Shown piece after piece: positions 1,958 to 61,324 of a stretch of 64,000 nt of DNA. Positions within the stretch are counted from its first letter, which is position 1. Each line of letters begins with the position of its first letter. This stretch comes from Aselliscus stoliczkanus. Taxonomy: Eukaryota > Chordata > Mammalia > Chiroptera > Hipposideridae. The notes under the pieces are model-generated. The model was not told where the DNA came from and ran no database searches. It saw only the letters and a program-made list of their open reading frames with translations. The position numbers and the translations under genes are program-made. The stretch spans positions 72,826,687-72,890,686 of the forward strand of contig CM066732.1 of the NCBI GenBank assembly GCA_033961575.1, written 5' to 3'.

Positions 1958-1973
1958 TCTCCATTACATTATT
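1958..1973. repeat. Target-site duplication, left copy (L1 element 1)
   Basis: 16-base sequence TCTCCATTACATTATT that recurs at 5334-5349 with one mismatch. It flanks the deleted L1 precisely. Confidence 0.8.
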
Positions 1974-11665: not shown

Positions 11666-11848
11666 TTGGTTATTTATTTATTTATTTATTTATTTATTTG
11701 TTTCAAGTGTACAAAACAATGCAATAGTTATGCTTTTCACCCCTCACAAAGTGACAGCCACTTTCCTTCAATATACCCCACCATTCCCGATACATATCTA
11801 TTACAATCCATTGACCTCACTTCCGACACTGTACTCCACATCCTGTGA

Positions 11849-11852
<4 letters not shown>

Positions 11853-11907
<55 letters not shown>
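11853..11907. repeat. (TA)n microsatellite inside the L1 3'UTR
   Basis: About 55 bases of TA repeats, located where the homologous 3'UTR of the half-L1 copies has only a short CCATCCATATC stretch. Confidence 0.9.
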
Positions 11908-11917
<10 letters not shown>

Positions 11918-12239
11918 GTTGACATATAATATTATTCAATGGCAGCTTCAGATGTACAGTGCAGTGGTCAGGTTTCTACACTGTCCATGAAGTGTTCTCC
12001 TTAACAAGACATGAGTCCATCTGGCCCTCTAAAATATATTTACAACATTATTGATTATATTGCCCAAACTGTCTCTTATATCCCTGTGGCATTATTGAAG
12101 TTACCAATTTATGTTGTCTTGTCCCTTTCCCTTCTCCCTCATCCCCTCCCCCTCGCATCTAACAATCATCCGTTTTTCCTCTGTGTCTCTGAAACTATTT
12201 CTGTTTACATTGCTCGTTTATTCAGTTCTTTAGATTCCA

Positions 12240-15200
12240 CATATAAGTGAGATCATATGGTATTTGTCTTTCTCTGACTGACTTATTTCACTTAGCATAA
12301 TGTTCTCTAGATCCATCCATATTGTTGCAAATGGTATGATTTCATTCTTCTTTATAGCTGAGTAATACTCCATTGTGTAAATATACCACAGTTTCTTAAT
12401 ATATCTACCGATGGGTATTTCAATTGTTTTAAGTCTTGGCTGTTGTAAATAGCACTGCAGTGAACATAGGGGTGCATATATTTTTTTGAATTAGTGTCAT
12501 GGGTTTCTCTGGATAGACACCCAAGAGTGGAATTGCTGGGTCATATGGTAGTTCCATTTCAGGCTTTTTGAGATACCTCCATACTGATTTCCATAGTGGT
12601 TGCACCAATTTGCAATCCCACCAACAGTGCACCAGGGTTCCCTTTTCCCCACAATCTCGTCAGCACTTATTGTTTGTTGATTTATTGATGATAGCCATTC
12701 TGACTGGAGTGAGGTGGTATCTCATTGTGTTTTTTATTTGCATTTCTCTAATGATTAGTGAGGTTGAACACTTTTTTCATATGCCTGTTGGCCATCTGTT
12801 TGTCCTCTTTAGAGAAATGTCTCTTCATATCCTCTGCCCATTTTTTAATTGGGTTGTGTGTTTTTTTAGTGTTGAGTTGAATGAGTGTTTTATAAATTTT
12901 GGATATTAACCCCTTATCAGATATATCGTTGACCAATATCTTCTCCCATTCAGTAGGCTTCCTTTTTATTTTATTGATGGTTTCCTTTGCTGTGAAAAAA
13001 CTTTTAAGTTTGATATAATCCCATATGTTCATTTTTTCTTTTACTTCCCTTGCCTGTGGGGATATATCAGTAAAAATATTGCTTAGGGTAGTGTCTGCAA
13101 ATTTACTCCCTACCCTATATATTTTTTAGGAGTTTTATGGTTTCAGGCCTTACAGTTAAGTCTTTAATCCATTTTGAATTTTTTCTTGTATATGGTATAA
13201 ATAGGTGGTCCAATTTCATTTTTTTTGCATGTGTCAGTCCAATTTTCCCAGCACCATTTATTAAATAGACTATCTCTATCCCAATATAAATTCTTGCTTC
13301 TGTTGTTATAGATTAACTGACCATGTGTGAATGGATTTATTTCTTGGCTCTCTATTCTATTCCATTGATCTATGTGGCTGTTTTTATGCCAGTACCATAC
13401 TGTTTTGATTACTGTACCCTTGTAATATGATTTGATGTTGGGTAGTGTGATACCCCAACTTTGTTCATATTTCTCAGGATTGCCATGGGTATTCTGGGTC
13501 TTTTATGGTTCCATGTAAATTTTAGGATTATATTTTCTATTTCTGTGAAAAATGCCTTTGGTAGTTTGATAGGAATTGCATTGAATCTCTATATTGCTTT
13601 AGGCAGTATGGACATTTTAATTATATTAATTCTTCCTATCCATGAGCATGGTAGGTATTTCCAATTATTTGTATCTTCTTTAATTTCTCTCTTCAGTGTC
13701 TTATAATTTTCTGAGTACAGGTTTTTACTTCTTTGGTTAAATTTATTCCTAAGTATTTTGTAGTTCTTCAAGGAACTGTAACTGAGACTGTTTTCTTAAT
13801 TTCTCTTTCTGATAGTTGGTTATTGGTGTATACAAATGAAACTGATTTCTGAAAATTGATTTTGTATCCTGCTACCTTACTGAATTCATTTATCAGTTCC
13901 AATAGTTTTTTTATGGAGTCTTTGGTGTTCTCTATGTATAGTATCATGTCATCTGCATATAATGACAATTTTACTTCCTCCTGACCAAGTTGGATGCCTT
14001 TTATTTCTTTTTCATGTCTGATTGATGTGGCTAGAACTTCCAGAACTATATTGAATAAAAGTGGAGAAAGTAGACAGGCTTGTCTTGTTCCTGATCTTAA
14101 GGGGAATGGTTTTAGCTTTTCCCCATTGAGTATGATGTTAGCTGTGGGTTTATCATATATAGGCTTTATTATGTTGAGATATGATCCCTCTATGCCCACT
14201 TTGCTAAGAGTTTTTATCTTAAATTGCTGCTGGATTTTTTCAAATGCTTTTTCTGCATCTGTTGATATGACCATATGATTTTTATTTTTCATATTTTTGG
14301 TGTGGTGTATCACACTAATTGATTTGTGGATGTTGAACCAACCTTGCATACTGGGAATGAATCCCACTTGATCATGGTGCACAATCTTCTTAATATATTG
14401 CTGAATTCTGTTTGCTAACATTTTGTTGAGGATTTTTGCATCTATGTTCATCAGGGATATTGGTCTGTCATTTTCCTTTTTTGTACTGTCTTGGTCTGGT
14501 TTTGGAATCAGGGTGATAGTGGCCTCATAGAAAGAGTTTGGGAGTATTTCCTCCTTCTGGGTTTTTTGAAATAGTTTGAGAATAGGTGATAATTCTTTTT
14601 TGAATGTTTGGTGAAATTCACTTGTGAAGCCATCTGGTTCAGGGCTTTTGTTTGTTGGGAGCTTGTTGACTACTGATTCAATTTCATTGGTAGTAATCAG
14701 TCTGTTCAGATTTTCTGTTTCTTTTTGCTTTAGCCTTGGAAGGTTGTATGCTTCTAGAAAATTATCCATTTCTTCCAGATTGTCAAATTTGTTGGCATAT
14801 AGTTACTCATGGTAATTTGTTAAAAATTTTTTTGTGTTTCTGTGGTGTCTGTTGTTACTTCTCCTCTTTCATTTCTGATTTTACTAATTTGTGTCCTCTC
14901 TTTTTTCTTTTTGATGAGTCTGGCTAGAGGTTTGTCAATTTTGTTTACCGTCTCAAAAAGCCAGCTCTTGGTTTATTAATCTTTTGTATTGTTTTTCTGG
15001 TCTCTATTTCGTTTATTTCTGCTCTGGTCTTTATTATCTCCTTTCTTGTACTCTCTTTGGCCTTATTTTGCTTTTCTTTTTCCAGTTCCCTAAGGTGTAA
15101 GGATAAGCTGTTGATTTGAGATTTGTCTTCCTTCTTTAGGTAGGCCTGCACTGCTATGAACTTCCCTCTTAGGATTGCTTTGGCTGCATCCCAAAGATTT

Positions 15201-16085
15201 CAGGTCATGGTGTTTTCATTTTCGTTTGTCTTGTTGTATCTTTTGATTTCTTCCTTGATCTCATTTTTGACCCATTCACTATTTAGTAACATGTTATTCT
15301 CCTCCATGTGTTTAGCCTATTTAGCCTCCATGTGTTTCTGTGTTTTCCAGTTTTTTGCTTGTAGTTGATTTCTAATTTCATAGCACTCTGGTCAAAGAAG
15401 ATACTTGATATGATTTCGATTTTCCTAAATTTATTGAAACTTGTTTTGTGGCCTAAAATGTGATCTATCTTGGAAAATGTTCCATGTGCACTTGAGAAGA
15501 ATGTACATTCTGTAGCTTTGGGGTGAAATACTCTGAAAATATCAATTAAATCCAACTGATCTAATGTGTCATTTAAGGCCGCTGTTTCCACACTGATTTT
15601 CTATCTGGAGGATCTTTCCATTTGTGACAGTGGGATGTTGAAGTCCCCTACTATGATAGTGTTACTGTTGATCTCCATCTTTATGTCTGTCAATATCTGT
15701 TTTATATATTTAGGAGTTCTTATTTTAGGTGCTTAGATGTTTACTAGGGTTATTTCCTCCTGTTGGATCGATCCCTTTATTTTGAAGTGCCCTTCTTTGT
15801 CCTTTATTATATTCTTCATTTTAAAGTCTATTTTATCTGATATAAGTATCACTACTCCAGCTTTTTTCTCAGCTCTGTTTGCATAAAATATTTTACCCCG
15901 TCTCTTTATTTTCAGCCTGTATGTGTCTTTTGATCTGAGGTGAATCTCCTATATACAGCATATACAAGGGTCTTGCTTTCTTATCCATTCAGCCACGCTA
16001 TGTCTTTTGATTGGAGCATTTAATCCATTTACATTTAATGTGATTATTGATAGGTGTGTAGTCATTGCCATTTAGTTATTTGTGT
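12240..16085 (-). pseudogene. L1 ORF2 (endonuclease-reverse transcriptase), broken
   Basis: ORF2 normally makes the L1 nuclease and polymerase. The longest open piece (13768-14769, 333 residues) holds the [22 protein letters not shown], the FEKIQQQF region, [20 protein letters not shown] and the catalytic YADD box ([11 protein letters not shown]). Upstream pieces at 15283-15591 carry the endonuclease (FSKIDHILGHKTSFNKFRKI and EINYKQKTGKHRN). Downstream pieces at 12429-13032 carry the C-terminal region ([32 protein letters not shown]). Stops and frameshifts separate these pieces, so no full polymerase can be made. It retains the only reverse transcriptase core in the window. Confidence 0.9.
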
Positions 16086-16129
16086 TTCTGGTCTTCCTCA
16101 GTTAGGTTGTTTTTTTCTTTTTTTTTTCC

Positions 16130-17000
16130 TTAAAGAAGCCCTTTTAACATTTCCTGCAATGCTGGCTTGGTGGTAATAAATTCCTTTAGCTTATTCTTTT
16201 CTGCGAAGCTCTTTATCTCTCCTTCAATTTTAAATGATAGCCTTACTGGATAAAGCAATCTAGGTTGTCAGCCTTTGTTTTTCATCACTTTGAAAATATG
16301 CTGCCACTCCCGTCTGGCCTGCAAAGTTTCTGTAGAGAAGTCAGCTGATTTTTATGGGGATGTCCATGTAAGTAACTTGCTGTCTGTCCCTTGCTGCTTT
16401 TAGGATTCTGTCTTTGACCTTAAGCTTTGCCATTTTCACTATAATGTGTCTTGGTGTGGGCCTGTTTGGGATCATCTTGGTTGGAACTCTCTGCACTTTC
16501 TGGTCTTGTATGTGGATTTCCTTTGCCAGGTTAAGAAAATTTTCAGTTACACTTCAAATATGTTCTCAATCCCTTGTTCCCTCTCTTTTCCATCTGGTAT
16601 TCTTATGATGTGCTTGTTGTTGTATTTGATGTTATCACCCAGCTCCCTTAAACTATTTTCAATGTTTTTTATTCTTTTTTCTTTTTGTTGTTCCGTTTAG
16701 ATGATCTCTGCTATCTTATCTTCTAAGTCAAGGTCTGATTCTTTCCTCTGCTTCATCCAATCTTCTGGTAATTCCTTCGAGTTTGTTATTTATTTCAGTA
16801 ATTGCATTCTTTAGTTCTAGCTGGTTGTTTTTCATGATTTGTCTATCCTTTATATTCTCACTAATTTCCTTGAGCATTCTAATCATCAGTGTTCTGAACT
16901 CTATCTCTGATAGGTTGGTTGCCTCTATTTCCTCCAGTTCCATTGATTCAGAAGGTTTCTTTTGTTCTTTTATTTGGGATGTGTTTCTTTGTTTCCCCAT
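16130..17000 (-). pseudogene. L1 ORF1 (RNA-binding chaperone), broken
   Basis: Starts at 17000 with MGKQRNTSQIKEQKKPSES and continues through the coiled-coil part to about EEAEERIRP, where the frame ends at 16728. The RRM-like part follows in other frames down to about 16130. It aligns by eye with the intact ORF1 of the half-L1 copies, at clearly lower identity. Confidence 0.85.
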
Positions 17001-17559
17001 TCTGGCTTACTCTTTGCACTTGTTTCAATGTATTAGGTAGTTCCCCTAGGTCTCTCAGTCTTTTCTGAGTGGACTAATGTGGTATTTGTCCTTTATATTT
17101 GAATTGTTCAGTCTCCCTATTCTCCTGTGCGTGTGTACCTGAGGTGTTCCTTGTGTTGTGTGTCTTCTCCTGTTGAAGTTGAGCTTTGATTGGTTTTGGC
17201 TTGTCAGTAGGTAGGATTGACTCCCAGGCTGACTAGCTGTGAGGATTTGCTGTGTCCACAGTTTATGAGCTGCTGTGTGAGGGTTGACACTTCCGGTGAG
17301 GCTTGGCCCCTATGGGCTCTTGTGCCTGTAGCAATTTCCCTTTGGGTGTGATTCTTGTAGGTCAAACCTGGTAATGCTCCGATTTGGTCTAAAGTTGGAC
17401 TCTGCGTGTGATGATTCTTGAGCCTCTTTGACTGGGCCCTGCTGCAGAACTATTTTAGAGCAAAACAGATCAACAAGCACGGCCACAACAGCCACCAAAG
17501 GAAACCAGATGCTCTCACATGTAAAAAGCAACCAACAACCTACACTCACTTGTACAGAA

Positions 17560-23349: not shown

Positions 23350-23498
23350 TGAAAAATGAGAATTATTCTTTTTTTTTTTTTTTCCCCCGAGGGCAGTGTC
23401 ATTGGACCTCATGTGTGGGATCCGAACCTGGGCCGCTGGCGTCCCAAGCCAGCTCTTAACCACCGCGCCACTTGGCCGGCCCTGAAAAATGAGAATTA
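23350..23498 (-). mobile_element. tRNA-derived SINE, short form, with TSDs
   Basis: Minus-strand copy at 23366-23482: the tRNA-like head GGGCCGGCCAAGTGGCGCGG with pol III box A and box B (GGTTCGGATCCCACACATGAG on the minus strand) ends in GACACTGCCCTC and poly(A). The exact 16-base duplication TGAAAAATGAGAATTA flanks it at 23350-23365 and 23483-23498. Confidence 0.9.
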
Positions 23499-24345
23499 AT
23501 CTTACCACCTATTTCATCTATTTGAGTCAAGTAAAGGTTCAATAGGTAGTAGGGACACCTGTCTTTTATATGTCAAAATAATGACCTATTCTGCTGATCT
23601 TGCAAATTTGCAGCACAGTTGAGAAGATAGGAATACAGATATAAATATAGATGATCTAGTATGCTTCATCATCTGTAGATTATCAAAGTCTAATATTAGT
23701 TAGTGATCATTTATTAGTTAGTAACCAAGCTTTTACCTCATCAGTAAAGATAGATTAGGGAGTAGGGTAGATAGTTACATAGCAGCTCTCTGCCTTGCAA
23801 GTGGAAAGAGAAAGACCCGAGAGATGCAGATGGTACCAAGAAGCTGCATTTGGATTCTGAGCCACAGTTGAAGATACTGAGATAAAGAGCCTTTCCAAAA
23901 GGAGGGGAGCATTCCATGAGGGCAGGAACATGCGAGCTTGGGAAGCACAAGGGTGAACACCACTCAGATGAATCTGTGAATTTATAATAGAAGCAAATAT
24001 CACATGAGAGGAAGGAGGAAGTTGTGGGGTTCTCTGATGATTCACCAGGTGAAGAACTGGCCTGAAATAACACCTAGCATATCCACTGCCTGTGTACCAG
24101 TCACGGGGCCTGGGTAATATTACAAACAAGAGTTTGTAAGATCAAAAGGCAGGACAATGTGATTTTGTAGTCATGGCTGAGAGTTCTCTGACCTTGTTGT
24201 CAACTGAGACCCTCTGAGAGGAGGCACAGGTCCTGGGACCTGGCTTTGCAAAGCACATTTTCTTGGAAACTGGATCCTGCCCAGGTTCCCCTTTGGCACA
24301 GGCTGGGGCCCATTTAAATGATTTTTTAAAAAAAAAACTGGTTCA

Positions 24346-24449
24346 GGGCCGGCCAAGTGGGGCAGTGGTTAAGCACTGGCCTGGGAAGCCAGTGGCCCCG
24401 GTTCAGGTCCCACATATGAGGGCCAGTGACACTGCCCTCAAAAAAAAAA
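24346..24449 (+). mobile_element. tRNA-derived SINE, short form
   Basis: Complete short copy: GGGCCGGCCAAGTGGGGCAG at the start, box B GGTTCAGGTCCCACATATGA, then GACACTGCCCTC and poly(A). The short repeat TGGTTCA is found on both sides (24339-24345 and 24450 onward), a probable TSD. Confidence 0.85.
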
Positions 24450-25135
24450 TGGTTCAAAAAACACCTTTGTTATTTTTATAAGCTATTACAAATGCCTATT
24501 ATGGTGGTTCAGGAGATTTGGGGGCTGATCAAAAAATGTCAAAGATATGACTATGGGAGGCAGTCACATACACCAAGCTTTATTGGGCAGCCCTTGAACA
24601 GAGTTGTGAGAGGGGAAGTCCTTCCCAGCAAGAGATGTCCAAAGGCTTAAGGTGAGGGGGCACCATCCAGAGGAAGGAGGGCAAAGGGACTCCTGGGGTG
24701 AGATGAGGATCAGAGAGGGAGATTACATGTCTATGTGATGTTGCTCAGTATCAGCAGGGAGCCTCAGGGTCTAAGAGCTCCTAAGAGCCATACCAGCTTG
24801 GGTGTCCTCTAAACCACAAGGCTCTATCTAATCAATGGTGACAGCTATCTAGTGAGGTCATACGGAGTATACAAAACAGGCAAGCTTTAAATGACTAAAC
24901 ATCTGCTTGCTTGGGCTATTTTAAAAACAACCGGTTGTGTCAAAATTTGAGTTTGGTGCTGGTGGGCTTTCAGCTAATGAGTCTCAGCCTGCAGTGAAGA
25001 AATAAACAGCCTGGCCTATACACAGAGGCCATCGTTAGCTCATTTATGTAACAGCTGTGATAAACGCTTAAATAAAACATTCAAACAATACAACAAATAA
25101 AAAGAAGAAAGTCAAAACTACTCCATATCCTTCAA
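24450..25135. other. Unique intergenic DNA
   Basis: No gene or clear repeat seen. Confidence 0.4.
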
Positions 25136-26767: not shown

Positions 26768-27134
26768 CAGGGGTCGGCAAACTGCAGCTCCAGAGCCACA
26801 TGCGGCTCTGGGTACATTCTGTCTCAAAAGTTTGCAGACCTGGTTCGGGTCCCACATGTAAGGGCCAGTGACACTGCCCTCAAAAAAAAAAAAAAATAAT
26901 AGAGAAAAGTTTGCGGACCCCTGGAAGAGCCAATCCTGTCCCTCACAATAATTTAAAAATTATTTGACAGTCATAAATATATTTTTTTAAATAATTGCAA
27001 TTATTTAAGATTTTTATAAATGAAACTATGATAGTTTTATTTTCATTTTCAATTTTACTTCAGAGCCACAGCTCGTGAGCTGCAGTTTGCTAAACCCTGG
27101 CGGCTCTCCCTTCTCAACAGTTTGCTGACCCCTG
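26768..27134. mobile_element. hAT-like non-autonomous DNA transposon, compound
   Basis: The left end CAGGGGTCGGCAAACT (26768) and the right end AGTTTGCTGACCCCTG (27134) are inverted repeats of the hAT type. A third end-like motif, GTTTGCGGACCCCTG, lies at 26909-26923, so a small palindromic unit and a second arm appear to be joined. The interior has no transposase. An 8-bp TSD is not convincing. A 5'-truncated SINE sits within it. Confidence 0.6.
26841..26904 (+). mobile_element. 5'-truncated copy of the tRNA SINE inside the hAT
   Basis: Contains only box B onward: TGGTTCGGGTCCCACATGTA, then GACACTGCCCTC and poly(A). Flanked by AAAAGTTTGC[A/G]GACC at 26826-26840 and 26905-26919 (14 of 15 bases), so it was inserted already truncated. 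Confidence 0.8.
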
Positions 27135-28184: not shown

Positions 28185-28655
28185 TGGAATGGCTAATTTT
28201 TTTTTTTTTTTTTTTTTTAAGATTTTATTGGGGAATTGGGGTAGGGGAACAGCACTGGGGAATCGGGGAAGGGGAACAGACACGTTGCTGTCTTTTTGTT
28301 CTTCAGTCTAGTTGTGGAGGATGTTGCTTCACTGGCCCATGTTGGTATAATCATTGCGCTCTTCCCAGATGAGGCAGATCGGTCGTTGGCCTCTGGATGG
28401 TCGCTCACCGTGGCTATTGGCAGCTCACGCTGGCTGCTAGCCATTCACTGTAGCCTATGGCAGCCCACTGCAGCAGGGGCTGCAGCCCACACCATTGCCG
28501 GGGCTCGCATAGCCCAGCTCCAGGTGGGGCTGTTGTTAGCTGTAGAGGGCAGTGTCACTGGCCCTCATATGTGGGATCCGAACCGGGGCCGTTGGCATCC
28601 CAAAACCAGCTCTTAACCAATGCTCCACTCGGCCGGCCCTGGAATGGCTAATTTT
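28185..28655 (-). mobile_element. tRNA-derived SINE, long form, with TSDs
   Basis: Minus-strand copy at 28201-28639, about 440 bp. After the same tRNA-like head that ends GACACTGCCCTC, this copy continues with about 300 nt of extra body (CTACAGCTAACAACAGCCCC onward, then CACATCCTCC-like, ACTAGACTGAAGAACAAA) and finishes CCCCAATAAAATCTT plus poly(A). The exact 16-base TSD TGGAATGGCTAATTTT occurs at 28185-28200 and 28640-28655. The AATAAA just before the tail is unusual for a pol III SINE. Confidence 0.9.
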
Positions 28656-30841: not shown

Positions 30842-30856
30842 TATAAATGTATTTTA
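30842..30856. repeat. TSD half 1: flank of the 3' end of half-L1 copy A
   Basis: TATAAATGTATTTTA. Its exact reverse complement lies at 37131-37145, at the 5' end of copy B and not at the 5' end of copy A. Confidence 0.9.
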
Positions 30857-31595
30857 TTTATTTATTTTTTAAATTTTCTTTTATTTTATTATTTCAGGTG
30901 TACAACACAATGCAATAGTCATACTCTTTACCCCCCAAAGTGAAAACCCCCCACCCCCAGTTCGCCACCCCACTCCCCCGCCAATATCATACATATCCAT
31001 CACAACTCCCCTGACTCCCCTCCACAGTATACTCCACATCCCGTGACCATCCATATCTTCAGTTGCAGTTGGCATACAATACTATACAACATCAGCTTCA
31101 GGTGTACAGTGCAGTGATCAAACCTCTACTCCATCCATGAAGTGGTCTCCCTAACAAGACATGTGACTATCTGACACGCCACAAAATTTTTACAAGATTA
31201 TTATATTCCCCGAACTGTGTTTCATATCCCTGTGGCAATATTGTAGTTGTCTATTTATGCTGTCTAATCCCTTCCCCTTCCCGCCCATTCCCACCCCCCT
31301 CCCAACTAGCCACCCTCAGTTTTTCCTCTACATCTACGAGTCTGTTTACTTTGATCGTTCACTCGGCTCTTCAGACTCCACACACAAGTGAGATCACATG
31401 GTACTTGTCCTTCTCCGACTGACTTATTTCTCGCAACATAATAGCCTCTTCACAACATTATCAATTACATTCCCAGAACTGCCCCCATATCCCTGCGGCA
31501 ACATTGTAGTCCCACATACACTGTCCAAAACCTTCCCCCTCTCCCTCTTCCCCACTCCCTCCCAGCCAGCAACCATCAGTTTTTCCTTTATATCT

Positions 31596-31625
31596 GCTTG
31601 ATATGACTTCAATCTTCTTAAATTG
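31596..31625 (-). pseudogene. Relict ORF2 endonuclease codons in copy A
   Basis: Reads QFKKIEVISS on the minus strand, matching the endonuclease stretch NKFRKIEIISS in the ORF2 of L1 element 2. Only about ten codons survive. Confidence 0.7.
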
Positions 31626-31661
31626 TCTCTCTGGGTTAGCTTGTTTACCCCTTTCTTTTGT

Positions 31662-32534
31662 TTAAAAAAGCCCTTTTAACATTTCTTGCAATGCTGGCTT
31701 GGTGGTAATGAATTCCTCAAGCTTATTCTTTTCTGAGAAGCTCTTTATTTCTCCTTCAATTTTAAGTGATAGCCGTGCTGGGTAGAGCAATCTTGGTTGT
31801 AGGCCTTTATTTTGTGTCACTTTGAGTATCTCCTGCCACTCCCTTCTGGCCTGCAGAGTTTCTGTAGACAAGTCAGCTGTTAGTCTAACAGGAGTTTCTT
31901 TGTATGTAACCTGCTGTCTTTCTCTTGCAGCCTCTAGGATTCTGTCTCTGTCTTTAACCTTTGCCATTTTCACTATGATGTGTCTTGGTGTGGACCTGTT
32001 TGGGTTCAGCTTGTTTGGAACCCTCTGCACTTCCTGGGCATGTATGTTGACTTCCTTCACCAGGGTAGGGAAGTTTTCAGTCATTATTTTTTCAAATACA
32101 TTCTCGACCCCTTGCTTCTTCTCTTCTCCTTCTGGTATCCCTATGATTCGAAGGTGGTTGCGCATCACCTTGTCCCATAGGGCTCTTAAACTATTTTCAT
32201 TGTTTTTTATTCTTTGGTCTTTTTGCTGTGCCAACTGGGTGAGTTCTGCTGTTTTATCTTCCAAATCGCTGATCCGCTCCTCTGCTTCATCTACTCTACT
32301 GGTGATTCCTTCGAGTGTGTTCTTCATTTCAGTTATTGTGTTCTTTAGTTCTAACAGGTTGTTTTTCATGGTTTCCCTATCCTTCTTTATGTCCTCGCTA
32401 AGTTCCTTAAACATTTTTATCATCAGTGTTCTAAACTGTGTCTCTGAAAGGTTGGATCCCTCTGTTTCATTTGGTTCCATTTCTGGAGGTTTCTTCTGAT
32501 CTTTTACTTGTGACATGTTTCTTTGTTTCCCCAT
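31662..32534 (-). CDS. L1-type ORF1 protein, intact, copy A
   Basis: 290 residues from ATG (MGKQRNMSQ) to a stop at 31662-31664. ORF1p is a trimeric RNA-binding chaperone that coats L1 RNA in cytoplasmic particles. Visible parts: a short polar N-terminus (1-30), a coiled coil (about 35-118; EDIKKDRETMKNNLLELKNT, VDEAEERISDLEDK), an RRM-like domain (about 124-218; HLRIIGIPE, RVPNKLNPNR, STPRHIIVKMAK) and a C-terminal domain (about 219-285; VRLTADLSTETLQARREW, LQPRLLYPARLSL). It ends LKGLF, without the longer tail of some ORF1 proteins. The frame stays open 26 codons upstream, but only to a GTG, so I choose the ATG at 32534. No ORF2 follows. It could act on its own RNA or on that of full L1s. 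Compared with copy B it keeps residues DEA (82-84) and has K40, T79 and M151. Confidence 0.9.
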   Translation of the reverse strand: MGKQRNMSQVKDQKKPPEMEPNETEGSNLSETQFRTLMIKMFKELSEDIKKDRETMKNNLLELKNTITEMKNTLEGITSRVDEAEERISDLEDKTAELTQLAQQKDQRIKNNENSLRALWDKVMRNHLRIIGIPEGEEKKQGVENVFEKIMTENFPTLVKEVNIHAQEVQRVPNKLNPNRSTPRHIIVKMAKVKDRDRILEAARERQQVTYKETPVRLTADLSTETLQARREWQEILKVTQNKGLQPRLLYPARLSLKIEGEIKSFSEKNKLEEFITTKPALQEMLKGLF

Positions 32535-32721
32535 TCTGGCTGTTGCTCTGGGATTGCTTTGATGTATTAGATAGATCACCAGGAGAGCCCTGGCTGGATC
32601 ACGCAGGCACACAGCTCACGGCCCAACACTCCCAGGAAAACTCCCAGTCTCAGCCTGTCCCAATCAGCCACTCGCAGACCAGGCCGAGCAGCCCGACAAC
32701 CAATCAGCAGCCTGGCAACTC

Positions 32722-32944
32722 TGCAAGCGGAGTGCGGAGAGCAGAGACCCGAGGCAGCTTGCGTGCTCCCGCGTCTCAGTGAGCAGCCTCTTGGAGCCGG
32801 ATCACTCCCCACTAGGCGTTTCCCTGGCAACGAAGCACCAGCTGTGCAGAGGGTGGGGATCCCAGGCGGCTTGCGCACTCCCGGGTCTCAGTGAGCAGCC
32901 TGTTTTAGCCGGAGGGCACCCACCCAGCATTTCCCTGGCAACGC
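32722..32944 (-). repeat. Tandem monomers in the 5'UTR of copy A
   Basis: Two successive units of about 110 bp, each starting at GTTGCCAGGGAAA and containing GGCTGCTCACTGAGAC, as read on the minus strand. They match the units in copy B at 37853-38073. Confidence 0.75.
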
Positions 32945-33623
32945 AGTATAAGCCGGGCAGAGGGTGGGATCCAAGGCTGCAGGCGCACGCACACACGCAC
33001 TTCTGCACCAATTCCACCAGACCAATTAGGTCTCGGACCTGATCCTCTGTGGGAGGGCCCAAGCCCGACAAAATGGCGTCCTCCCCACACCACTCGCGTG
33101 CAGGTTCCACACCACGGGAACAGCAGTTCAAAAACATCCAGGCTTTGCACCAAAGGTGCTCAGCTCAGTCCGTCCGCGCAGGCTCCTGGCTCACACAGCC
33201 ACTCCCTCCACCAGGAACCAGGTAAGTGCTCACCGGCGAGCAAGCCCGGGCTCCGGCCCCACTGATTCCCCAGCCGCTCTTAGCCTCACCGAGCTGAGCA
33301 GAGAGTCCTCACTAATTTACTGCCGGCTATCTTAGAACTTCTCTTCTTGGCAAAGGAGCTCTGGGCTGGTGAGCTTGGTGTGCGGCCAGAGGGTCTCTCC
33401 CCCAACTGGAGAAGCCTCTCCACAGCTGGGACCTCCCTCACGGGGCTCGCCCTCTCTCGTCTCTGCCCATCCTACCAGACCTGACGCGGCTTCCTCTTTA
33501 AGTTTTTCGTTTAGTGGTTCTGTTCCTCCAGTGTTCCGGGGACCTCCAGGTTTGAATGCTGTATAATTTGCTTGTAATTTTGGTGTGATCCTGGGAGGCA
33601 GTTAGCACAGCGTCTGTCTATTG

Positions 33624-33632
33624 CGCCATTTT
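33624..33632 (-). promoter_or_regulatory. YY1-like motif at the 5' end of copy A
   Basis: AAAATGGCG on the minus strand, about 13 bases from the element start, the position where L1 promoters place YY1. Suggests an internal pol II promoter. Confidence 0.55.
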
Positions 33633-33644
33633 ACCGGAAGCCTC

Positions 33645-33656
33645 TCAATTCCTACT
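33645..33656. repeat. TSD half 2: flank of the 5' end of half-L1 copy A
   Basis: TCAATTCCTACT. Its exact reverse complement AGTAGGAATTGA is at 39920-39931, next to the 3' end of copy B. Confidence 0.9.
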
Positions 33657-35619
33657 AATAGTAAATAATACCAACTTCATAAATGAAGGGTCATACACAA
33701 TTATAATAAATGGTTACAACTTTATAGCATATGATGGATGTTAGCAGCCAAATACACATGTTCATTCCAAAAACTTGATCCATTTTTGGATTTGTGGGAG
33801 ATGGTCCTATTGGATAATGCTATCTTGAAGTGACATATTCTATGGATAGTTTTCTTGAGGAGATATTTACAGTAACAGAGAGAAAAAAATTTTATTCTGT
33901 TTGCTATTTGCAGATATCCTAGTAGAGGTGCCCAGTATTGATCAAGGATGGTGGTACTCTCAGTGCAAATCAAACGATTTTCAATATGCATTTTTACTGC
34001 AGAAGTTATGGTGATTTCAGTTATATGTATAATTTTAAATGTTAAAATCTTATAAGACATCTAAGCTTCAATTAGTTTAAACTCTATTAGAGAATTAATC
34101 AGAGTATGTATCCATTCAGAAAAAGAAGTAAGCACAATACCATGGCATAAAGATAATCTGTCAGGGCAGATAACAACTCACAGCATCCTTTCACAAGAGT
34201 GAATGTAGAACAAAGAGAAAGGAAGATTTCAGGTTGATAGATTTATGCAAATCAAAAGTTGAAAAAGCCTTCTAACTAAGCACTGTGAAATATCAGCTTG
34301 TAACATTCACCCCAAAAAGGACATCATTCAAATTTCAATGTGCCAACAATTGTCAAAAGAACCATGGCCTCCATAGTCAACCTTGAGTAACATCAGATTT
34401 TATTGTAAATCCCTATAAAATTTGCATAAAACACATTGCTTGTTTCAATTACCTCCTTTCCATCATTTCTCAGTCTGTTTATACAGTGATACTAACTTCC
34501 AAAGAAATGCTTAGCTAATTTTACTAAAATTAGGAAGTGGTAAGAAGTTTTTGATATTTCTTATACAAATCCATATTCCATTCCTTTCTTTAGGAGATTC
34601 ATCTTAGATGAATCTCAGAATGGTAAATTCACCATTACAATAATATTTAAGGGGGAGGAAACATACTTGATAGATTAGTTTTCAAAAGAGAAGAAACCTG
34701 TGAGATTTCCATACTAAAAAGAGAAAAATATGTCACCATGTTAAGATATAAGTAAATAACCTAATAAAAAGGAAAATACTTTATTTTCAGGAGAATTCTC
34801 GTTAAATAATATTAAAAATATATCATCTAAAATTGGTAGTAAAATTGCACAAGTGCCAACAGTATAAAAAGCAAATAATATTAATTAAACACATTTAATA
34901 CGATACTATGTGTCACTTTAGTAGGTAGCTCTTTATTTACCCCATCATTAAATATCTTCCTGAACAGTTGATAGAATCCATTAAAAGACTAATAAATCTC
35001 AGTATGAAATGTTAAGGAAAAATGGGAGCTATAATTTGGACAACTATGTAGTCTCTAAGTAAATTTACCAGAAAAATGGAACGGCCCATTAATAGTAATG
35101 GAAATGATAACAAGGTAGCTGTGAAATAGTGAAATTTAATTAATCAGTACCCACATTTAAAGATAATTACTGAAAACATGTGATTGGATCACATGATGCT
35201 TTAAATTGTGTGATTCAGGTGTTTTGTTGATCAGGGCACCCTGATTTTCTGTTCCTGCACAGATAAGTCTGCAAAACAAATTTTTTTCTAGATTATGCCT
35301 GATGTAGTATATTTTGTATTTTATTGGTTATGCAAATACTTGTGAAAACAGTCTGCCACTATATAATACTGTGAAGTACTATTTAATTGGATCCCAAATA
35401 AGCTGACCCAATTATAACCTGTAACATGAACATAAAAGAAAAATACAAAGATAAACTCTTCTCTTTGATGGACCATGTTTGGGTAACTGATTTAATTGAG
35501 CTCCTGAACAATAATCCTATTTCTGAGCTGTTGTTTCTTCTGTTGAACATATAAAGACTTCTTTAAGTATGTCCTCAGTTGCATGGCTGATTTACCTTAA
35601 TACCTGTGTGGAGCTGGGG

Positions 35620-36075
35620 AAAAAAAGATTCATTTGATATTAACCCCAAGAAGAAATTTATCTGCTGAGATGGGCTCCCCATGGTCAACCAAGGGCCCAA
35701 GTTTTATGAATAATAAATCTAGTGGCCATTTGCTGACAGGGATCCCTCACATACTTTGTATATGGAAAGAACCTCAGACCGAACACTCTGCCTCCCACAC
35801 CAACCACTGCAGGGAAACCCTGGTTTCTTCTTTCTACTAATGGACTGACACCTGCCCTGTCCAATCAGAACTGCACAATTTGGATACCTCATTTACATAA
35901 AATGGACCTAATTGCGAACTGGGTGGGAACTTTCCCTATAAGAGATGATCTCCCATTTGGGTGAAATACAATTTAGGACGCTACCTGAACCTGTGTCTCC
36001 CAAGCTGTAGCTCCTTTTGTTCAAATAAATGCTTATTGTTCTTTATTATAGTCTAAAATTAATTTTGGTTTACAC
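35620..36075 (+). mobile_element. ERV LTR (ERV1-like), probably solo
   Basis: LTR layout: CCAATCAGAACTGCACAATT, a TATA-like CTATAAG at 35937-35943, then GAACCTGTGTCTCCCAAGCT and a poly(A) signal AATAAA at 36024-36029 about 85 bp downstream, ending near TTTACA. No gag, pol or env beside it. Boundaries approximate. Confidence 0.6.
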
Positions 36076-36261
36076 CTGCTGGGAACAAATGGGTTGCATC
36101 TACTTAATGTCAAGTTGAATGGAAAGCATCTATCACTGGATAAGGCACTGGAATAGTATCTCTAGTGCTAGATAATAATTGTATTATGGGTATTCATTAC
36201 TTCAGTTAAGTGAAACAGGAATACTGTACATAGCAAATGAGTTCTGAGTACAGAGAGAGCA

Positions 36262-37065
36262 GCCAGAGTAACACTGCAAAATGAAAGTCAGGTCATGCAG
36301 TCCTTTACTCAAAACCTTCCATTTCTAAATGCAATGTGATATCCTCAATTAGATCAGAATCTAGGGAACAGAAAAAGGAAATATAGTGGAAACACTGATT
36401 ATTCCAAATGGAGTTTGGTTTAGTTAGTTAAAAAAATTTTTTTTTTTTTACCAGTGTCAATTTCTTAATTTTAAAAAATGCATTACAATCATATAAGATA
36501 TTGACATTAGGGGAAGCCAGGTTAAGGGTATACAGAATCTCTATATTATGTTGGCAATTTTAATATATATTTAGAATTATTTGAAAATAAAAAAATTATT
36601 TAAAAAATAAAACCTCCATTTGTTTCTTGTATCACTCCCCGCAAAAAAACCAAAGTCCTTACAATGATCCATGAGCCCTATGTGTTCTGACACACCAGTA
36701 CTTCTCTGATCTTAACTCCTATTACTCTTCCATGCTCACTCCTCCCCACTGGCCTCCTCACTATTTCTCCAGCACCCCTGGAGTGTTCTTATCCCAGGGC
36801 CTTTGCAATTATTTCTCTCTTTGAAACATTTTCCCTCCAGATTCCAGGGGCTTGCTCTCTTACATCCTTCCAGGCTTTACATAAAGACCTTCTCAATGAG
36901 ACCATCCCTGGCCTTGTCTATTTTCCCTATTAGACAGTAATCTCCAAGAAAGCAGGGATTTTTGTATGTTTTTTGTTTATTACTTTATCCTCTGTGTGTA
37001 AAACAGTGCTTGATAAGGAGGGAACACCTGATGAATACTTGTTTAATGAATGAATGAATGAACAA
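36262..37065 (+). mobile_element. L2 LINE 3' fragment, interrupted
   Basis: L2 3' end in sense: AGCCAGAGTAACACTGCAAA and AACCTTCCATTTCTAAATG before the interruption at about 36360-36610, then CCCAGGGCCTTTGCAATTAT, AGACAGTAATCTCCAAGAAAG and TTTAATGAATGAATGAATGA at the end. Confidence 0.7.
36420..36605 (+). mobile_element. Old L1 3'UTR fragment inside the L2
   Basis: The segment GACATTAGGGGAAGCCAGGT, GGGTATACAGAATCTCTATA and the closing TTGAAAATAAAAAAATTATT is the 3' end of an old L1M/L1ME-type element. It splits the L2. Confidence 0.6.
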
Positions 37066-37130
37066 ATGAAATAAGATAAAGAAAAATCATGGAAGATTTT
37101 TCCAAATAGTGGCTGGAGAACACTGGTCTT

Positions 37131-37145
37131 TAAAATACATTTATA
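37131..37145. repeat. TSD half 1 partner: flank of the 5' end of half-L1 copy B
   Basis: TAAAATACATTTATA, the exact reverse complement of 30842-30856 over all 15 bases, with mismatches on both sides. It abuts the element start. Confidence 0.9.
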
Positions 37146-37156
37146 GGACTTCCGGT

Positions 37157-37165
37157 AAAATGGCG
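37157..37165 (+). promoter_or_regulatory. YY1-like motif at the 5' end of copy B
   Basis: AAAATGGCG about 12 bases after the element start, as in copy A. Likely part of the internal L1-type promoter. Confidence 0.55.
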
Positions 37166-37852
37166 CAATAGACAGATGCTGTGCTAACTGCCTCCCAGGA
37201 TCACACCAAAATTACAAGCAAATTATACAGCATTCAACCCCGGAGGTCCCTGGAACACTGGAGGAACAGAACCACTAAATGAAGAACTTAAAGAGGAAGC
37301 CGCATTGGGTCTGGTAGGACAGGTGGAGACGAGAGAGGGCAAACCCCGTGAGGGAGGTCCCAGCTGTGGAGAGGCTTCTCCGGTTGGGGGAGAGACCCTC
37401 TGGCCGCACCCCAAGCTCACCAGCCAGAGCTCCTTTGCCGGGAAGAGAAGTTCTAAGATAGCTGGCAGTAAATTAGTAAGGACTCTCTTTGCTCAGCTCG
37501 GTGAGGCTAAGAGCGGCTGGAGAATCAGTGGGGCCGGTGCCTGGGCTTGCTCGCTGGTGAGCACTTACCTGGTTCCTGGTGGAGGGAGTGGCTGTGTGAG
37601 CCGGCAGCCTGCGGGGACGGACTGAACTGAGCACCTTTGGTGCAACGGCTGGAGGTTTTTAGACTATTGTTCCCGTGGTGCGGAGCTTGCACGCAAGTGG
37701 TGTAGGGAGGACGCCATTTTGTCAGGCTTGAGCCCTCCCACGAAGGATCAGGTCCGAGACCTAATTGGTCTGGTGAAATTGGTGCAGAAGTGCGTGTGTG
37801 CGTGCATGTGCACCTGCGGCCTTGGATCCCCACCCTCCGCCCAGCTTATATT

Positions 37853-38073
37853 GAGTTGCCAGGGAAACGCAGGGTGGGTGCCCTCCGGCTCCAACGGCTG
37901 CTCACTGAGACCCGGGAGTGCACGAGCCGCCTCGGGTCTCTGCTCTCCACACTCCGCTTGCAGAGTTGCCAGGGAAACGCCTAGTGGGAGTGCTCCAGCT
38001 CCAACAGGCTGCTCACTGAGACACGGGAGCACGCAAGCCACCTCGGGTCTCTGCTCTCCGCACTCCGCTTGCA
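37853..38073 (+). repeat. Two 110-bp tandem monomers in the 5'UTR of copy B
   Basis: Unit 1 (37853-37962) and unit 2 (37963-38073) both begin GAGTTGCCAGGGAAACGC and share GGCTGCTCACTGAGAC and CTCGGGTCTCTGCTCTCC. A third unit starts at 38074 but diverges after GAGTTGCCAGG. The sequence before 37853 resembles the end of another unit. The units are GC-rich. Confidence 0.8.
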
Positions 38074-38260
38074 GAGTTGCCAGGCTGCTGATTGGTTGTC
38101 GGGCTGCTCGGCCTGGTCTGCGAGTGGCTGATTGGGACAGGCTGAGACTGGGAGTTTTCCTGGGAGTGTTGGGCCGTGAGCTGTGTGCCTGCGTGATCCA
38201 GCCAGGGCTCTCCTGGTGATCTATCTAATACATCAAAGCAATCCCAGAGCAACAGCCAGA

Positions 38261-39124
38261 ATGGGGAAACAAAGAAACATGTCACAAGTAAAAGATCAGA
38301 AGAAACCTCCAGAAATGGAACCAAATGAAACAGAGGGATCCAACCTTTCAGAGACACAGTTTAGAACACTGATGATAAGAATGTTTAAGGAACTTAGCGA
38401 GGACATAAAGAAGGATAGGGAAACCATGAAAAACAACCTGTTAGAACTAAAGAACACAATAACTGAAATGAAGAACACACTCGAAGGAATTGCCAGTAGA
38501 GTAGAGGAGCGGATCAGCGATTTGGAAGATAAAACAGCAGAACTCACCCAGTTGGCACAGCAAAAAGACCAAAGAATAAAAAACAATGAAAATAGTTTAA
38601 GAGCCCTATGGGACAAGGTGATGCGCAACCACCTTCGAATCATAGGGATACCAGAAGGAGAAGAGAAGAAGCAAGGGGTCGAGAATGTATTTGAAAAAAT
38701 AATAACTGAAAACTTCCCTACCCTGGTGAAGGAAGTCAACATACATGCCCAGGAAGTGCAGAGGGTTCCAAACAAGCTGAACCCAAACAGGTCCACACCA
38801 AGACACATCATAGTGAAAATGGCAAAGGTTAAAGACAGAGACAGAATCCTAGAGGCTGCAAGAGAAAGACAGCAGGTTACATACAAAGAAACTCCTGTTA
38901 GACTAACAGCTGACTTGTCTACAGAAACTCTGCAGGCCAGAAGGGAGTGGCAGGAGATACTCAAAGTGACACAAAATAAAGGCCTACAACCAAGATTGCT
39001 CTACCCAGCACGGCTATCACTTAAAATTGAAGGAGAAATAAAGAGCTTCTCAGAAAAGAATAAGCTTGAGGAATTCATTACCACCAAGCCAGCATTGCAA
39101 GAAATGTTAAAAGGGCTTTTTTAA
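38261..39124 (+). CDS. L1-type ORF1 protein, intact, copy B
   Basis: 287 residues from the ATG at 38261 (MGKQRNMSQ) to TAA at 39122-39124. Same family and domain order as copy A: coiled coil, RRM-like domain (HLRIIGIPE, STPRHIIVKMAK) and C-terminal domain (LTADLSTETLQARREW). It differs by a 9-nt in-frame deletion that removes residues DEA of the coiled coil (82-84 in copy A) and by about three substitutions (R for K40, A for T79, I for M151). The upstream open frame (to 38183) begins with GTG and is not counted. The near absence of changes and of stops points to recent insertion. Whether it is translated is unknown, but an ORF1 kept open in both copies suggests use until recently. Confidence 0.9.
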   Translation: MGKQRNMSQVKDQKKPPEMEPNETEGSNLSETQFRTLMIRMFKELSEDIKKDRETMKNNLLELKNTITEMKNTLEGIASRVEERISDLEDKTAELTQLAQQKDQRIKNNENSLRALWDKVMRNHLRIIGIPEGEEKKQGVENVFEKIITENFPTLVKEVNIHAQEVQRVPNKLNPNRSTPRHIIVKMAKVKDRDRILEAARERQQVTYKETPVRLTADLSTETLQARREWQEILKVTQNKGLQPRLLYPARLSLKIEGEIKSFSEKNKLEEFITTKPALQEMLKGLF

Positions 39125-39160
39125 ACAAAAGAAAGGGGTAAACAAGCTAACCCAGAGAGA

Positions 39161-39190
39161 CAATTTAAGAAGATTGAAGTCATATCAAGC
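39161..39190 (+). pseudogene. Relict ORF2 endonuclease codons in copy B
   Basis: Encodes QFKKIEVISS, homologous to part of the ORF2 endonuclease of L1 element 2 (antisense near 15400-15435). Same scrap as in copy A. Confidence 0.7.
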
Positions 39191-39199
39191 AGATATAAA

Positions 39200-39605
39200 G
39201 GAAAAACTGATGGTTGCTGGCTGGGAGGGAGTGGGGAAGAGGGAGAGGGGGAAGGTTTTGGACAGTGTATGTGGGACTACAATGTTGCCGCAGGGATATG
39301 GGGGCAGTTCTGGGAATGTAATTGATAATGTTGTGAAGAGGCTATTATGTTGCGAGAAATAAGTCAGTCGGAGAAGGACAAGTACCATGTGATCTCACTT
39401 GTGTGTGGAGTCTGAAGAGCCGAGTGAACGATCAAAGTAAACAGACTCGTAGATGTAGAGGAAAAACTGAGGGTGGCTAGTTGGGAGGCGGATGGGAATG
39501 GGCGGGAAGGGGAAGGGATTAGACAGCATAAATAGACAACTACAATATTGCCACAGGGATATGAAACACAGTTCGGGGAATATAATAATCTTGTAAAAAT
39601 TTTGT
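39200..39605 (+). repeat. Duplicated 3' module in copy B
   Basis: Two diverged direct copies, about 39200-39340 and 39457-39605. Each has GGAAAAACTGA, a G-rich block (GCTGGGAGG / AGTTGGGAGG), GACAGYRTA, ACTACAATRTTGCC and RCAGGGATATG, and ends in ..GGGAATRTAAT. The last ORF2 codons lie between them. Copy A has the same structure at about 31595-31441 and 31340-31195. Confidence 0.75.
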
Positions 39606-39919
39606 GGCGTGTCAGATAGTCACATGTCTTGTTAGGGAGACCACTTCATGGATGGAGTAGAGGTTTGATCACTGCACTGTACACCTGAAGCTGATGTTGT
39701 ATAGTATTGTATGCCAACTGCAACTGAAGATGTGGATGGTCACGGGATGCGGAGTATACTGTGGAGGGGAGTCAGGGGAGTTGTGATGGATATGTATGAT
39801 ATTGGGGGGGAGTGGGGTGGCGAACTGGGGGTGGGGGGTTTTTTACTTTGGGGGGTAAAGAGTATAACTATTGCATTGTGTTGTACACCTGAAACTAATA
39901 AAAAATAAATAAATAAATA

Positions 39920-39931
39920 AGTAGGAATTGA
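39920..39931. repeat. TSD half 2 partner: flank of the 3' end of half-L1 copy B
   Basis: AGTAGGAATTGA, exact reverse complement of 33645-33656. Confidence 0.9.
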
Positions 39932-41387: not shown

Positions 41388-41770
41388 GTCCAGCCGAGTG
41401 CACACTGGTTAGGAGTTGGCTTGGGATGCCAGCTCTGAGCAGCAGGGCCCCGGTTCAGATCCCACATATGAGGGCCAGTGACACTGCCCTCTACAGCTAA
41501 AATGGTGAAAAACGGCTTGACCTGGAGCTGGGTTGCTGTGAATCACCTGCAACGGCGTAGGCCACAGTAGGGCTGGCTGGCAGCTGGCGTATGATTTCGT
41601 GAGCTGCTGTGAGTCACCGTGAGCAGCCGTCCAATGGCTGGTGAGTGACTGCCTCACCCGGGAAACACACAATGATAATACCAACATGGGCCAGTGAAGC
41701 GACATCCTCCACAACTAGACTGAAGAACACCAGGACAGCAACTTGTCTGTTCCCCTCCCACAAATCCCCA
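41388..41770 (+). mobile_element. tRNA-derived SINE, long form, diverged
   Basis: Sense copy with a decayed head (CCAGCCGAGTGCACACTGGTT), box B GGTTCAGATCCCACATATGA, GACACTGCCCTCTACAGCTAA and then the same extra body as the copy at 28.2-28.6 kb, ending GACTGAAGAACACCAGGACAG, CTTGTCTGTTCCCCTCC and CCCCAATA. It runs into a (TA)n tract at 41776-41806. No clear TSD. Confidence 0.85.
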
Positions 41771-47969: not shown

Positions 47970-48113
47970 CATCTAGGTTGCTTTATTTTATTTTTTTTAT
48001 TTTTGAGGGCAGTGTCACTGGCCCTCATATGTGGGACCCGAACCGGGGCTGCTGGCCTCCCAAGCCAGCGCTCAACCACAGCGCCATTTGGCCGGCCCAT
48101 CTAAGTTGCTTTA
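47970..48113 (-). mobile_element. tRNA-derived SINE, short form, with TSDs
   Basis: Minus-strand copy at 47986-48097. Head GGGCCGGCCAAATGGCGCTG, box B GGTTCGGGTCCCACATATGA, GACACTGCCCTC and poly(A). TSD CATCTA[G/A]GTTGCTTTA at 47970-47985 and 48098-48113 (15 of 16). Confidence 0.9.
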
Positions 48114-59424: not shown

Positions 59425-59560
59425 AAGAATATTTTAGGGCCGGCCGAGTGGCGCAGTGGTTAAGCACTGGCTTCGGAAGCCAGCAGCCCCGGTTTGGGTC
59501 CCACATATGAGGGCCAGTGACACTGCCCTCAAAAAAAAAAAAAAAAAGAATTATTTTATC
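59425..59560 (+). mobile_element. tRNA-derived SINE, short form
   Basis: Well-preserved copy at 59437-59547: GGGCCGGCCGAGTGGCGCAG, then TGGTTAAGC, box B GGTTTGGGTCCCACATATGA, GACACTGCCCTC and poly(A). AAAGAATATTTTA on the left and AAAGAATTATTTTA on the right form a TSD with one indel. Confidence 0.9.
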
Positions 59561-59574: not shown

Positions 59575-60270
59575 GTTTTAAAATTTTTATTAAAATATAG
59601 CTAACATACAATATTATATTAGTTTCAGGTGTACACCATAGTGATTCAACATTTATGTCCCTAAAGAAATAAGTCCAACAACCATCTGACACTGTACCAT
59701 GCTATCACAATATTATTGATTATATTCCCTATGCTGTACATTACATCCCCATGACTTACATATTTTATACCTGGAAATTTGAATCTCTCATTCCCCTTCT
59801 TCACTATTTTGCCCCTTTTTAAAATTTTCAATCACAGTTGACATTCAATATTATTTTACATTAATTCAGGTGTACAACATTGAAGTGATCCCCCTGACAA
59901 GTCCAGTATCCACCTGGCACTGTACATAGTTATTACCATATTATTGATTATATTCCCTATGCTTTACTTTATAAACCCATGACAATTTTGTAACAACCAA
60001 CTTGTCCTTCTTCATCCCTTCACTTTTTTCACCCAGCCCTCAACCCCTCTCCCATCTGGCAACTATCAAAATGTTCTCTGTGTCTGAGTGTCTTTCTGTA
60101 TTGTTTGTTTGCTTATTTTGTTCTTTAGATTTCACATACAAGTGAAATCACATTGCACCTTTCTCTATCTGACATACTCCACTTGGCACAATACCTTCCA
60201 GGTCCATCCATGCTGCTGCAGATGGGAAGAACTCATTCCCTTTTACAGCCAAGCAATATTCCATTGTATA

Positions 60271-60842
60271 CACAAGGTCTGACAATGAAGTTTGTGAACT
60301 CATTCTAGGAAAAAATTCTACATACCTCATTGCTGAATATCACTCTGGTCACCTTTGAAGTACTCCCCTTAAGATGCTATGCACTGATGCCAGCACCTAG
60401 TCCACCCTTCAAAGCAATTTTGGAACTTTTTTTCTGGAACGGCCTTCAGAGCTGTCATCATATTACCCTTGATGTCCTGAATGTCATCAAAATGTCTTCC
60501 TTTCAATATTTTCTTTCTCTTTGGGTCAAGAAAAAAGTCATTGGGGGCCAGATCAGGTGAGTATGGAGGGAGTTCCAATACAGTTATTTATTTACTGGCT
60601 AAAAACTCCCTCCCAGACAGTGCAATGTGAGCGGGTGTGTTGTCGTGATACAAGAGCCATGAACTGTTGGTGAAAAGTTTAGGTCATCTAACTTTTTCAT
60701 GCAGGCTTTTCAGCACTTCCAAATGGTAAACTTGGTTAACTGTTTGTCCAGTTGGTACAAATTCATAATGCATAACTCCTCTGACATCAACAAAGGTTAG
60801 CAACATCGTGCAACAGTTCATGAACTTAATTGTTGCACCTTG
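60271..60842 (-). mobile_element. Mariner DNA transposon, internally deleted
   Basis: Terminal inverted repeats CAAGGTCTGACAATGAAGTT (left, from 60273) and CAAGGTGCAACAATTAAGTT (right, read from 60842), followed by further matching bases, and flanked by TA where the L1 context would read continuously. The minus strand encodes the C-terminal half of a mariner transposase: EFVPTGQTVNQVYHLEVLKS, the HDNTPAH box with the second catalytic Asp, and PPYSPDLAPNDFF with the third Asp, ending RCWHQCIAS. The N-terminal DNA-binding half is gone and stops occur. Non-functional. Confidence 0.85.
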
Positions 60843-61324
60843 TATATACCACTTCCTCTTTATCCATTAATCTATTGATGGACACCCAGGCTGCCTCCAC
60901 ACCTTGACCAATGTAAACAATGCTACAATGAACATGTGGATGCACACGTCTGATCAAAGTAGAGTTTTGGGTTTCTTCGGATAAATAGCCAGGAGTGGGA
61001 TTACTAGGTCCTTCTTTGTCTTTTGTTATAGCCTTTGTTTTAAACTCTATTTTGTCTGGCGTAAGTATTGCTACTTCAGTTTTGTTTTTTTTTTCCATTT
61101 TCATGAAATATCTTCTTCCCTTGCTTTACTTTCAGTCTGTGTATGTCTTTCGATGTGAAGTGAGTCTCTTATAGGCAGCATATGTAAAGGTTTTGTTCTC
61201 TTATCCACTCAACCACACTATCTTTTGATTGGAGTATTTAATCCATTTACATTGAAAATATTTATTGATAGATATATAATTATTGCTGTTTTATTATTCA
61301 TATTTTTGATTTATTATTTTTTTC

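Follow-up and report, generated by a model that had tools for sequence, protein, structure and literature searches.

Features of the A/B locus

The window analysed here is a stretch of 64,000 nucleotides from the bat Aselliscus stoliczkanus (GenBank assembly GCA_033961575.1, contig CM066732.1, positions 72,826,687 to 72,890,686 of the forward strand). Near its middle, two copies of the retrotransposon HAL1 (half-L1), named A and B, lie in opposite orientation on either side of a short spacer. The features of the locus, including the target-site duplications (TSDs), the open reading frames (ORFs) and the tracts in which the two copies are nearly identical, are given below by position in the window.

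30842..30856, minus strand: outer TSD1, adjoining the 3′ end of copy A; reverse complement of 37131-37145 without mismatch
30857..33644, minus strand: HAL1 copy A, full length, 3′ end on the left; from end-to-end alignment with B and other full-length copies of the genome
30893..32754, minus strand: homogenised tract in A (sense positions 891-2752); 0.59-0.65% divergence from B, maximum chi-square cut
31665..32534, minus strand: L1 ORF1 of copy A, 290 amino acids, open; Pfam Transposase_22, Tnp_22_dsRBD and Tnp_22_trimer
33645..33656, minus strand: inner TSD2, adjoining the 5′ end of copy A; reverse complement of 39920-39931 without mismatch
33657..37130, no strand: spacer, very probably inverted; from the arrangement of the TSDs
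37131..37145, plus strand: inner TSD1, adjoining the 5′ end of copy B; match to 30842-30856
37146..39919, plus strand: HAL1 copy B, full length; from end-to-end alignment with A and other copies
38041..39893, plus strand: homogenised tract in B; divergence from A, maximum chi-square cut
38261..39121, plus strand: L1 ORF1 of copy B, 287 amino acids, open, with a 9-nt in-frame deletion relative to A; same Pfam domains
39920..39931, plus strand: outer TSD2, adjoining the 3′ end of copy B; match to 33645-33656

A and B are full-length HAL1 elements of about 2.8 kb, which carry the ORF1 of L1 without ORF2, and are not truncated L1 copies. Both gave matches above cut-off to PF02994, PF17490 and PF17489 (RBD-like, dsRBD-like and trimerisation domains). 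ORF2 was absent from both, with nothing to correspond to the 3.8 kb that separate ORF1 from the 3′ untranslated region (UTR) in an older L1 of the window, which runs on the strand of A; that stretch includes an RVT_1 domain (E 1.3e-37). An inverted-repeat scan of the window returned the two copies as arms (30863-33640 and 37149-39923), in pieces of 76-99% complementarity. Aligned over 2.78 kb, A and B are 95.8% identical and have a perfect run of 784 nt in common (31298-32081 and 38705-39488).

HAL1 has been described as a non-autonomous derivative of L1 with ORF1 only, arisen several times in mammals (PMC5753468), and A and B are alike in this. Of 34 copies of the family studied here, 20, including A and B, still have ORF1 open over at least 280 amino acids (one of the 20 without a start codon), which sets the family apart from HAL1 as described there. 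Proteins related to the ORF1 of A and B numbered 1293; among the best 120 listed, the top five were all bat-named, four from Cnephaeus nilssonii (50-57% identity) and one from Rhinolophus ferrumequinum (72% over 77% of the query). A search of Rfam at gathering thresholds gave no match, and in a comparison with viral contigs 2 stretches fitted a pattern, neither of which encodes a relative.

Further copies were collected by searching the genome with pieces of A and B and scoring the best 40 matches of each search. The 5′ piece of A gave 8108 first-look candidates, and the 40 scored were A and 39 other loci, of which 32 were kept as contiguous and full length and 7 were set aside. With the ORF1/3′UTR piece of A (4739 first-look candidates; A, B and 38 others scored) 17 of the 38 passed the same full-length filter, and with the 5′ piece of B (8587 first-look candidates; B and 39 others scored) 10 of the 39 were taken up, five of them already among the copies collected, and 9 were measured. 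For pairs of 3′ parts, 70 of 77 loci were measured, 7 being left out as broken. The 32 contiguous full-length loci found with the 5′ piece of A, and the exact direct TSDs of 28 of 49 copies described below, characterise HAL1 as a retrotransposed family of L1 type.

Some details of the elements were recorded beside these results. The 9-nt in-frame ORF1 deletion of copy B, at 38502-38503, was absent from A and from the 32 other copies compared. Within the 3′UTR of HAL1 a stretch of about 150 nt is duplicated (31189-31335 and 31449-31595, 73-74% alike), and likewise in B. The older full L1 lies at 11670-17428 (minus strand) and consists of an ORF1 relic, an ORF2 relic with reverse transcriptase and a 3′UTR related to that of A and B. 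Two old L1-type elements at 1968-5325 and 59606-63546 (minus strand) have 5′UTR, ORF1 and 3′UTR matches to A and B, with too little room for a complete ORF2, and are possibly older half-L1 copies.

Crossed target-site duplications

The flanks of A and B are crosswise reverse complements of each other, as the sequence-only reading, an earlier account of this DNA, had described. The matches are exact, over 15 of 15 bases at TSD1 and 12 of 12 at TSD2, and both are flush with the element ends. Compared with its own other flank and anchored at the ends, A matched itself over 3 bases and B over 2. Direct TSDs were also sought at other boundaries, as had been suggested in that account, and none was found for either copy: the longest shared words within 60 nt were of 7 bases for A and 8 for B and lay off the ends. 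Of the 49 other full-length HAL1 copies scanned in the same genome, 28 have direct TSDs of their own that agree exactly over 9 bases or more, and 34 do so when one mismatch is tolerated; an earlier exact scan with other margins was positive in 19 of 32 copies and, for B, gave the 8-base word again. Since 21 of the 49 are without an exact TSD, the lack of own TSDs in A and B is not remarkable by itself.

The crosswise matches were compared with two controls. When 60-mers of the window were paired at random, an anchored match of at least 12 bases was obtained in 47 of 200,000 draws, a tail behind which microsatellites and self-overlaps are suspected. When the 5′ flank of one copy was set against the 3′ flank of another, an exact match of at least 9 bases was obtained in 1 of 150 comparisons and a match with at most one mismatch in 6 of 150. 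Two exact reciprocal matches of 15 and 12 bases are far beyond chance; a chance flank match was rejected on these controls, which bear out the earlier statement that matches at all four junctions were very unlikely to be accidental. The sense strand ahead of TSD1 reads TTT/AAAA, a site like that of the L1 endonuclease (described motif TT/AAAA), and the first base of TSD1 in sense, a T, is readable either as tail or as TSD.

Mosaic divergence between A and B

Differences between the two copies are concentrated in the 5′ part, where 46 of 647 positions differ (7.1%, positions 13-660), against 10 of 1845 in the 3′ part; over the roughly 1.86 kb that lie 3′ of the 5′ third, divergence is 0.5-0.65%. 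The maximum chi-square cut was placed at sense position 891 of A, and none of 2000 shuffles reached its value (0/2000). Faster CpG decay of the 5′UTR was rejected as the whole cause, as the contrast persists at non-CpG sites (51/774 in alignment columns 16-913 versus 8/1793 in columns 914-2776; Fisher p 1.3e-19) and the median pair of copies has a 5′/3′ divergence ratio of 2.05. In the 5′UTR each copy has about 2.1 units of a tandem repeat of 111-112 bases (32752-32988 in A, 37853-38084 in B), and the homogenised tract starts at or within this repeat.

Set among the other copies, A and B are the closest pair by their 3′ parts, whereas their 5′ parts are unexceptional. Their 3′ divergence of 0.65% was the lowest of 2556 pairs (next 0.92%, median 3.6%), and the tree of 3′ parts joined them with a Shimodaira-Hasegawa-like approximate likelihood ratio (SH-aLRT) support of 100. 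Their 5′ parts differ by 9.4%, where the median pair differs by 8.3% and 979 of 1274 other pairs are no further apart than A and B; neither copy was among the 40 matches listed for the other's 5′ piece. The resulting 5′/3′ ratio of 13.1 was the highest of 2775 pairs (75 copies), the next being 4.7. Six sequence states were private to A and B, all of them in the 3′ part and none in the 5′ part. This mosaic, which is new here and goes beyond the earlier observation of crossed TSDs, points to a local exchange of sequence between the copies, a probable second trace of recombination besides the swapped TSDs.

A further pair of HAL1 copies on different contigs, L053 and L068, combine a 3′ divergence of 0.92% with a 5′ divergence of 4.3%. 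Their ratio ranks second among the 2775 pairs, and they may mark a wider 5′-3′ exchange in the family.

Origin of the arrangement and comparison with known systems

Crossed TSDs are the pattern predicted by an inversion between two independently inserted, inverted elements, and the inversion is supported accordingly. The earlier proposal that recombination between A and B inverted the spacer at 33.65-37.14 kb is supported by the crossed TSDs together with the localised near-identity of the two copies, and we hold with considerable confidence that retrotransposon recombination-mediated inversion of the spacer plus a conversion tract is the best explanation. Two full-length HAL1 elements would have inserted independently and in opposite orientation, about 3.5 kb apart, by target-primed reverse transcription of L1 type, each making a direct TSD of its own (TSD1 of 15 bp, TSD2 of 12 bp). 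Homologous recombination between the inverted copies, with the crossover inside the elements, would then have flipped the spacer and left one TSD of each pair with each element; the homology of A and B (95.8% and the perfect run) is sufficient in length and closeness for such recombination. The same or a neighbouring event would have overwritten about 1.86 kb (5′UTR end, ORF1 and 3′UTR) of one copy with the other's sequence by conversion. The DNA itself shows the crossed TSDs, the make-up of the elements and their mosaic divergence, from which we infer independent insertion, the succession of events, crossover and conversion as one event, and the direction of conversion.

In the 3′-part tree the stem of A and B measured 0.014 and their tips 0.0022 and 0.0040, against a family median tip of 0.020. 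By these lengths the donor copy appears to be about as old as its relatives, and homogenisation would date from about the most recent fifth of that span. The neutral rate for bats is about 2.2-2.7e-9 per site per year, which would place the exchange, very roughly, at 0.8-1.8 million years ago and insertion at 6-8 million years ago. The 5′-part tips of A and B (0.050 and 0.027) are too noisy for dating.

Several observations weigh against recombination between A and B, or against parts of that account. TSD2 lies at ATT/AGTA, which is not a canonical endonuclease site. Trees of the 5′ part do not reject a clade of A and B (p-AU, from the approximately unbiased test, 0.299 and 0.437), and most of their inner branches have low support, so that the case for exchange rests on divergence and not on topology. 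The number of private states fell as copies were added, from 9 (versus 32 others; 1856 sites) to 7 (versus 49) and 6 (versus 70), and is not special by itself, since 6 was tied with two pairs on different contigs; in the 3′UTR alone the A-B divergence of 1.04% was likewise tied with another pair. Chimerism of A and B, with the 5′ part of one and the 3′ end of the other, is at most a possibility: 5′ and 3′ parts are not linked in the family (median rank correlation -0.07, 73 copies), so that one cannot say which parts originally belonged together. Copies with B-like 5′ parts were nearer to the shared 3′ sequence than those with A-like 5′ parts (0.0321, n=9, versus 0.0370, n=29; p 0.008), from which no direction of conversion is drawn for the same reason. 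The samples were chosen by likeness to A and B and the best 40 were scored per search, so that unlinked copies of this 3′ sequence may have escaped notice. Conversion could also be an event separate from the inversion.

Among the alternatives, descent from chimeric source elements would leave the inversion standing without its second trace: A and B would come from two HAL1 masters with different 5′UTRs and a recently shared ORF1/3′UTR. UTR replacement is described in L1 evolution, there by unrelated sequences (PMC5753468), and other pairs close in the 3′ part also have raised 5′/3′ ratios, up to 4.7. This origin is nevertheless unlikely, given that the genome search with the ORF1/3′UTR piece of A put B first among non-self matches (2337 bits; next 2280, at 98%; best 40 of 4739 candidates) and that, of the 70 loci measured over the whole 3′ part, the nearest to A apart from B stood at 2.54%. 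Synchronous insertion, in which two HAL1 cDNAs are primed at two nicks at once and their 5′ ends joined crosswise with no homologous recombination, accounts for the geometry no less well than recombination: both 3′ tails adjoin the outer flanks, and the 5′ ends of both elements meet the inner flanks that have changed places, which is what that model predicts. Joining of L1 cDNA to a distant break has been modelled (PMC7058536), and synchronous L1 events promoting chromosomal crossover in tumours are the subject of a 2024 preprint cited in PMC12350158. Such an origin would call for a further, separate conversion to account for the near-identity confined to the 3′ part and would need two simultaneous germline insertions 3.5 kb apart, and we regard it as highly improbable; if true, it would mean a germline inversion made in one step and homogenised later, and would extend the tumour reports to the germline and to a non-autonomous element.

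The remaining concern lies with the assembly, in that the true chromosome might keep the ancestral order with direct TSDs, the assembler having crossed over in the near-identical arms. This caveat of the sequence-only reading stands: such a flip looks the same as a real inversion from sequence alone, the orientation is known from one assembled genome only, and the 784-nt perfect run with about 1.86 kb at 99.4% is a place where a short-read or gap-filling assembler might misjoin. It is weakened by the contiguity of the assembly (2,187,126,926 bases in 146 contigs, contig C6, which carries the window, being 162 Mb, with no N in the 64 kb), by the single place in the genome of a 1-kb spacer piece (33700-34700), and by the dimensions of the structure. 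Since the whole measures 9.1 kb with arms of 2.8 kb, and the inner arms are 7-15% divergent, reads of about 4 kb should place the arms. The 3′ homogenisation, moreover, is not produced by a flip itself unless the arms were collapsed, and an assembly flip is on balance quite unlikely. Two other origins were rejected. A larger inverted duplication does not agree with the A/B match, which stops at the elements, outer and inner flanks differing beyond the TSDs; twin-priming (5′ inversion inside one L1 insertion) does not agree with two elements that are each complete in one direction and whose TSDs cross between them.

Taken as the product of recombination between A and B, the locus is an unusually complete single-locus record of a retrotransposon-mediated inversion, with both TSD pairs intact and the exchange tract readable, and the order from insertion through recombination to the present state can be read from one genome. 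It suggests that half-L1 copies, though non-autonomous, can be substrates for inversion. Because the arms keep the 784-nt perfect run, another flip of the segment would be possible, and the segment may be polymorphic.

Elsewhere in the window, a repeat resembling a short interspersed element (SINE), about 100 nt long, was found in eight places, pairs being about 75-96% alike:

23361-23490, 24342-24459, 26834-26908, 28545-28640, 41390-41491, 47978-48102, 59429-59547 and 61999-62124, no strand given: SINE-like repeat

Outside A and B, two longer SINE-like copies (28256-28636 and 41390-41770, 72% alike) make up a further inverted pair, which belongs to this dispersed repeat. A stretch at about 600-1030 (minus strand) looks by eye like a processed ribosomal-protein pseudogene, for which we take RPL23A as the presumable candidate.

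Retrotransposon recombination-mediated inversion has been described in human and chimpanzee, with 21 L1-mediated inversions among 49, and unmatched TSDs were used there to tell the derived state in primates (Lee 2008, PMC2603318). The present locus agrees with the cases in that report in having elements of the same type in opposite orientation at both breakpoints, with own TSDs unmatched, and in a size within the published 166 to 81,189 bp; it differs in that the elements are HAL1 and not L1 or Alu, the genome is not that of a primate, and no outgroup fixes the ancestral orientation. Exchanged TSDs, opposite orientation and ectopic recombination are shared with the Galileo inversion 2z3 of Drosophila buzzatii (PMC2775673), although Galileo is a DNA transposon with 7-bp TSDs, and in that study chimerism of the copies was demonstrated and the chromosome without the inversion was sequenced. 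In three human genomes 8 LINE-1 inversions are reported, with a median size of 5,487 bp and a median similarity of the LINE-1 pairs of 97.1% (PMC9675761), to which the 3.5 kb spacer and the 95.8% likeness of the elements here are comparable; those are variants called in three individuals, whereas the present case comes from one genome. The mechanism of inversion is already well described, and the A/B locus is a well-preserved instance of it.

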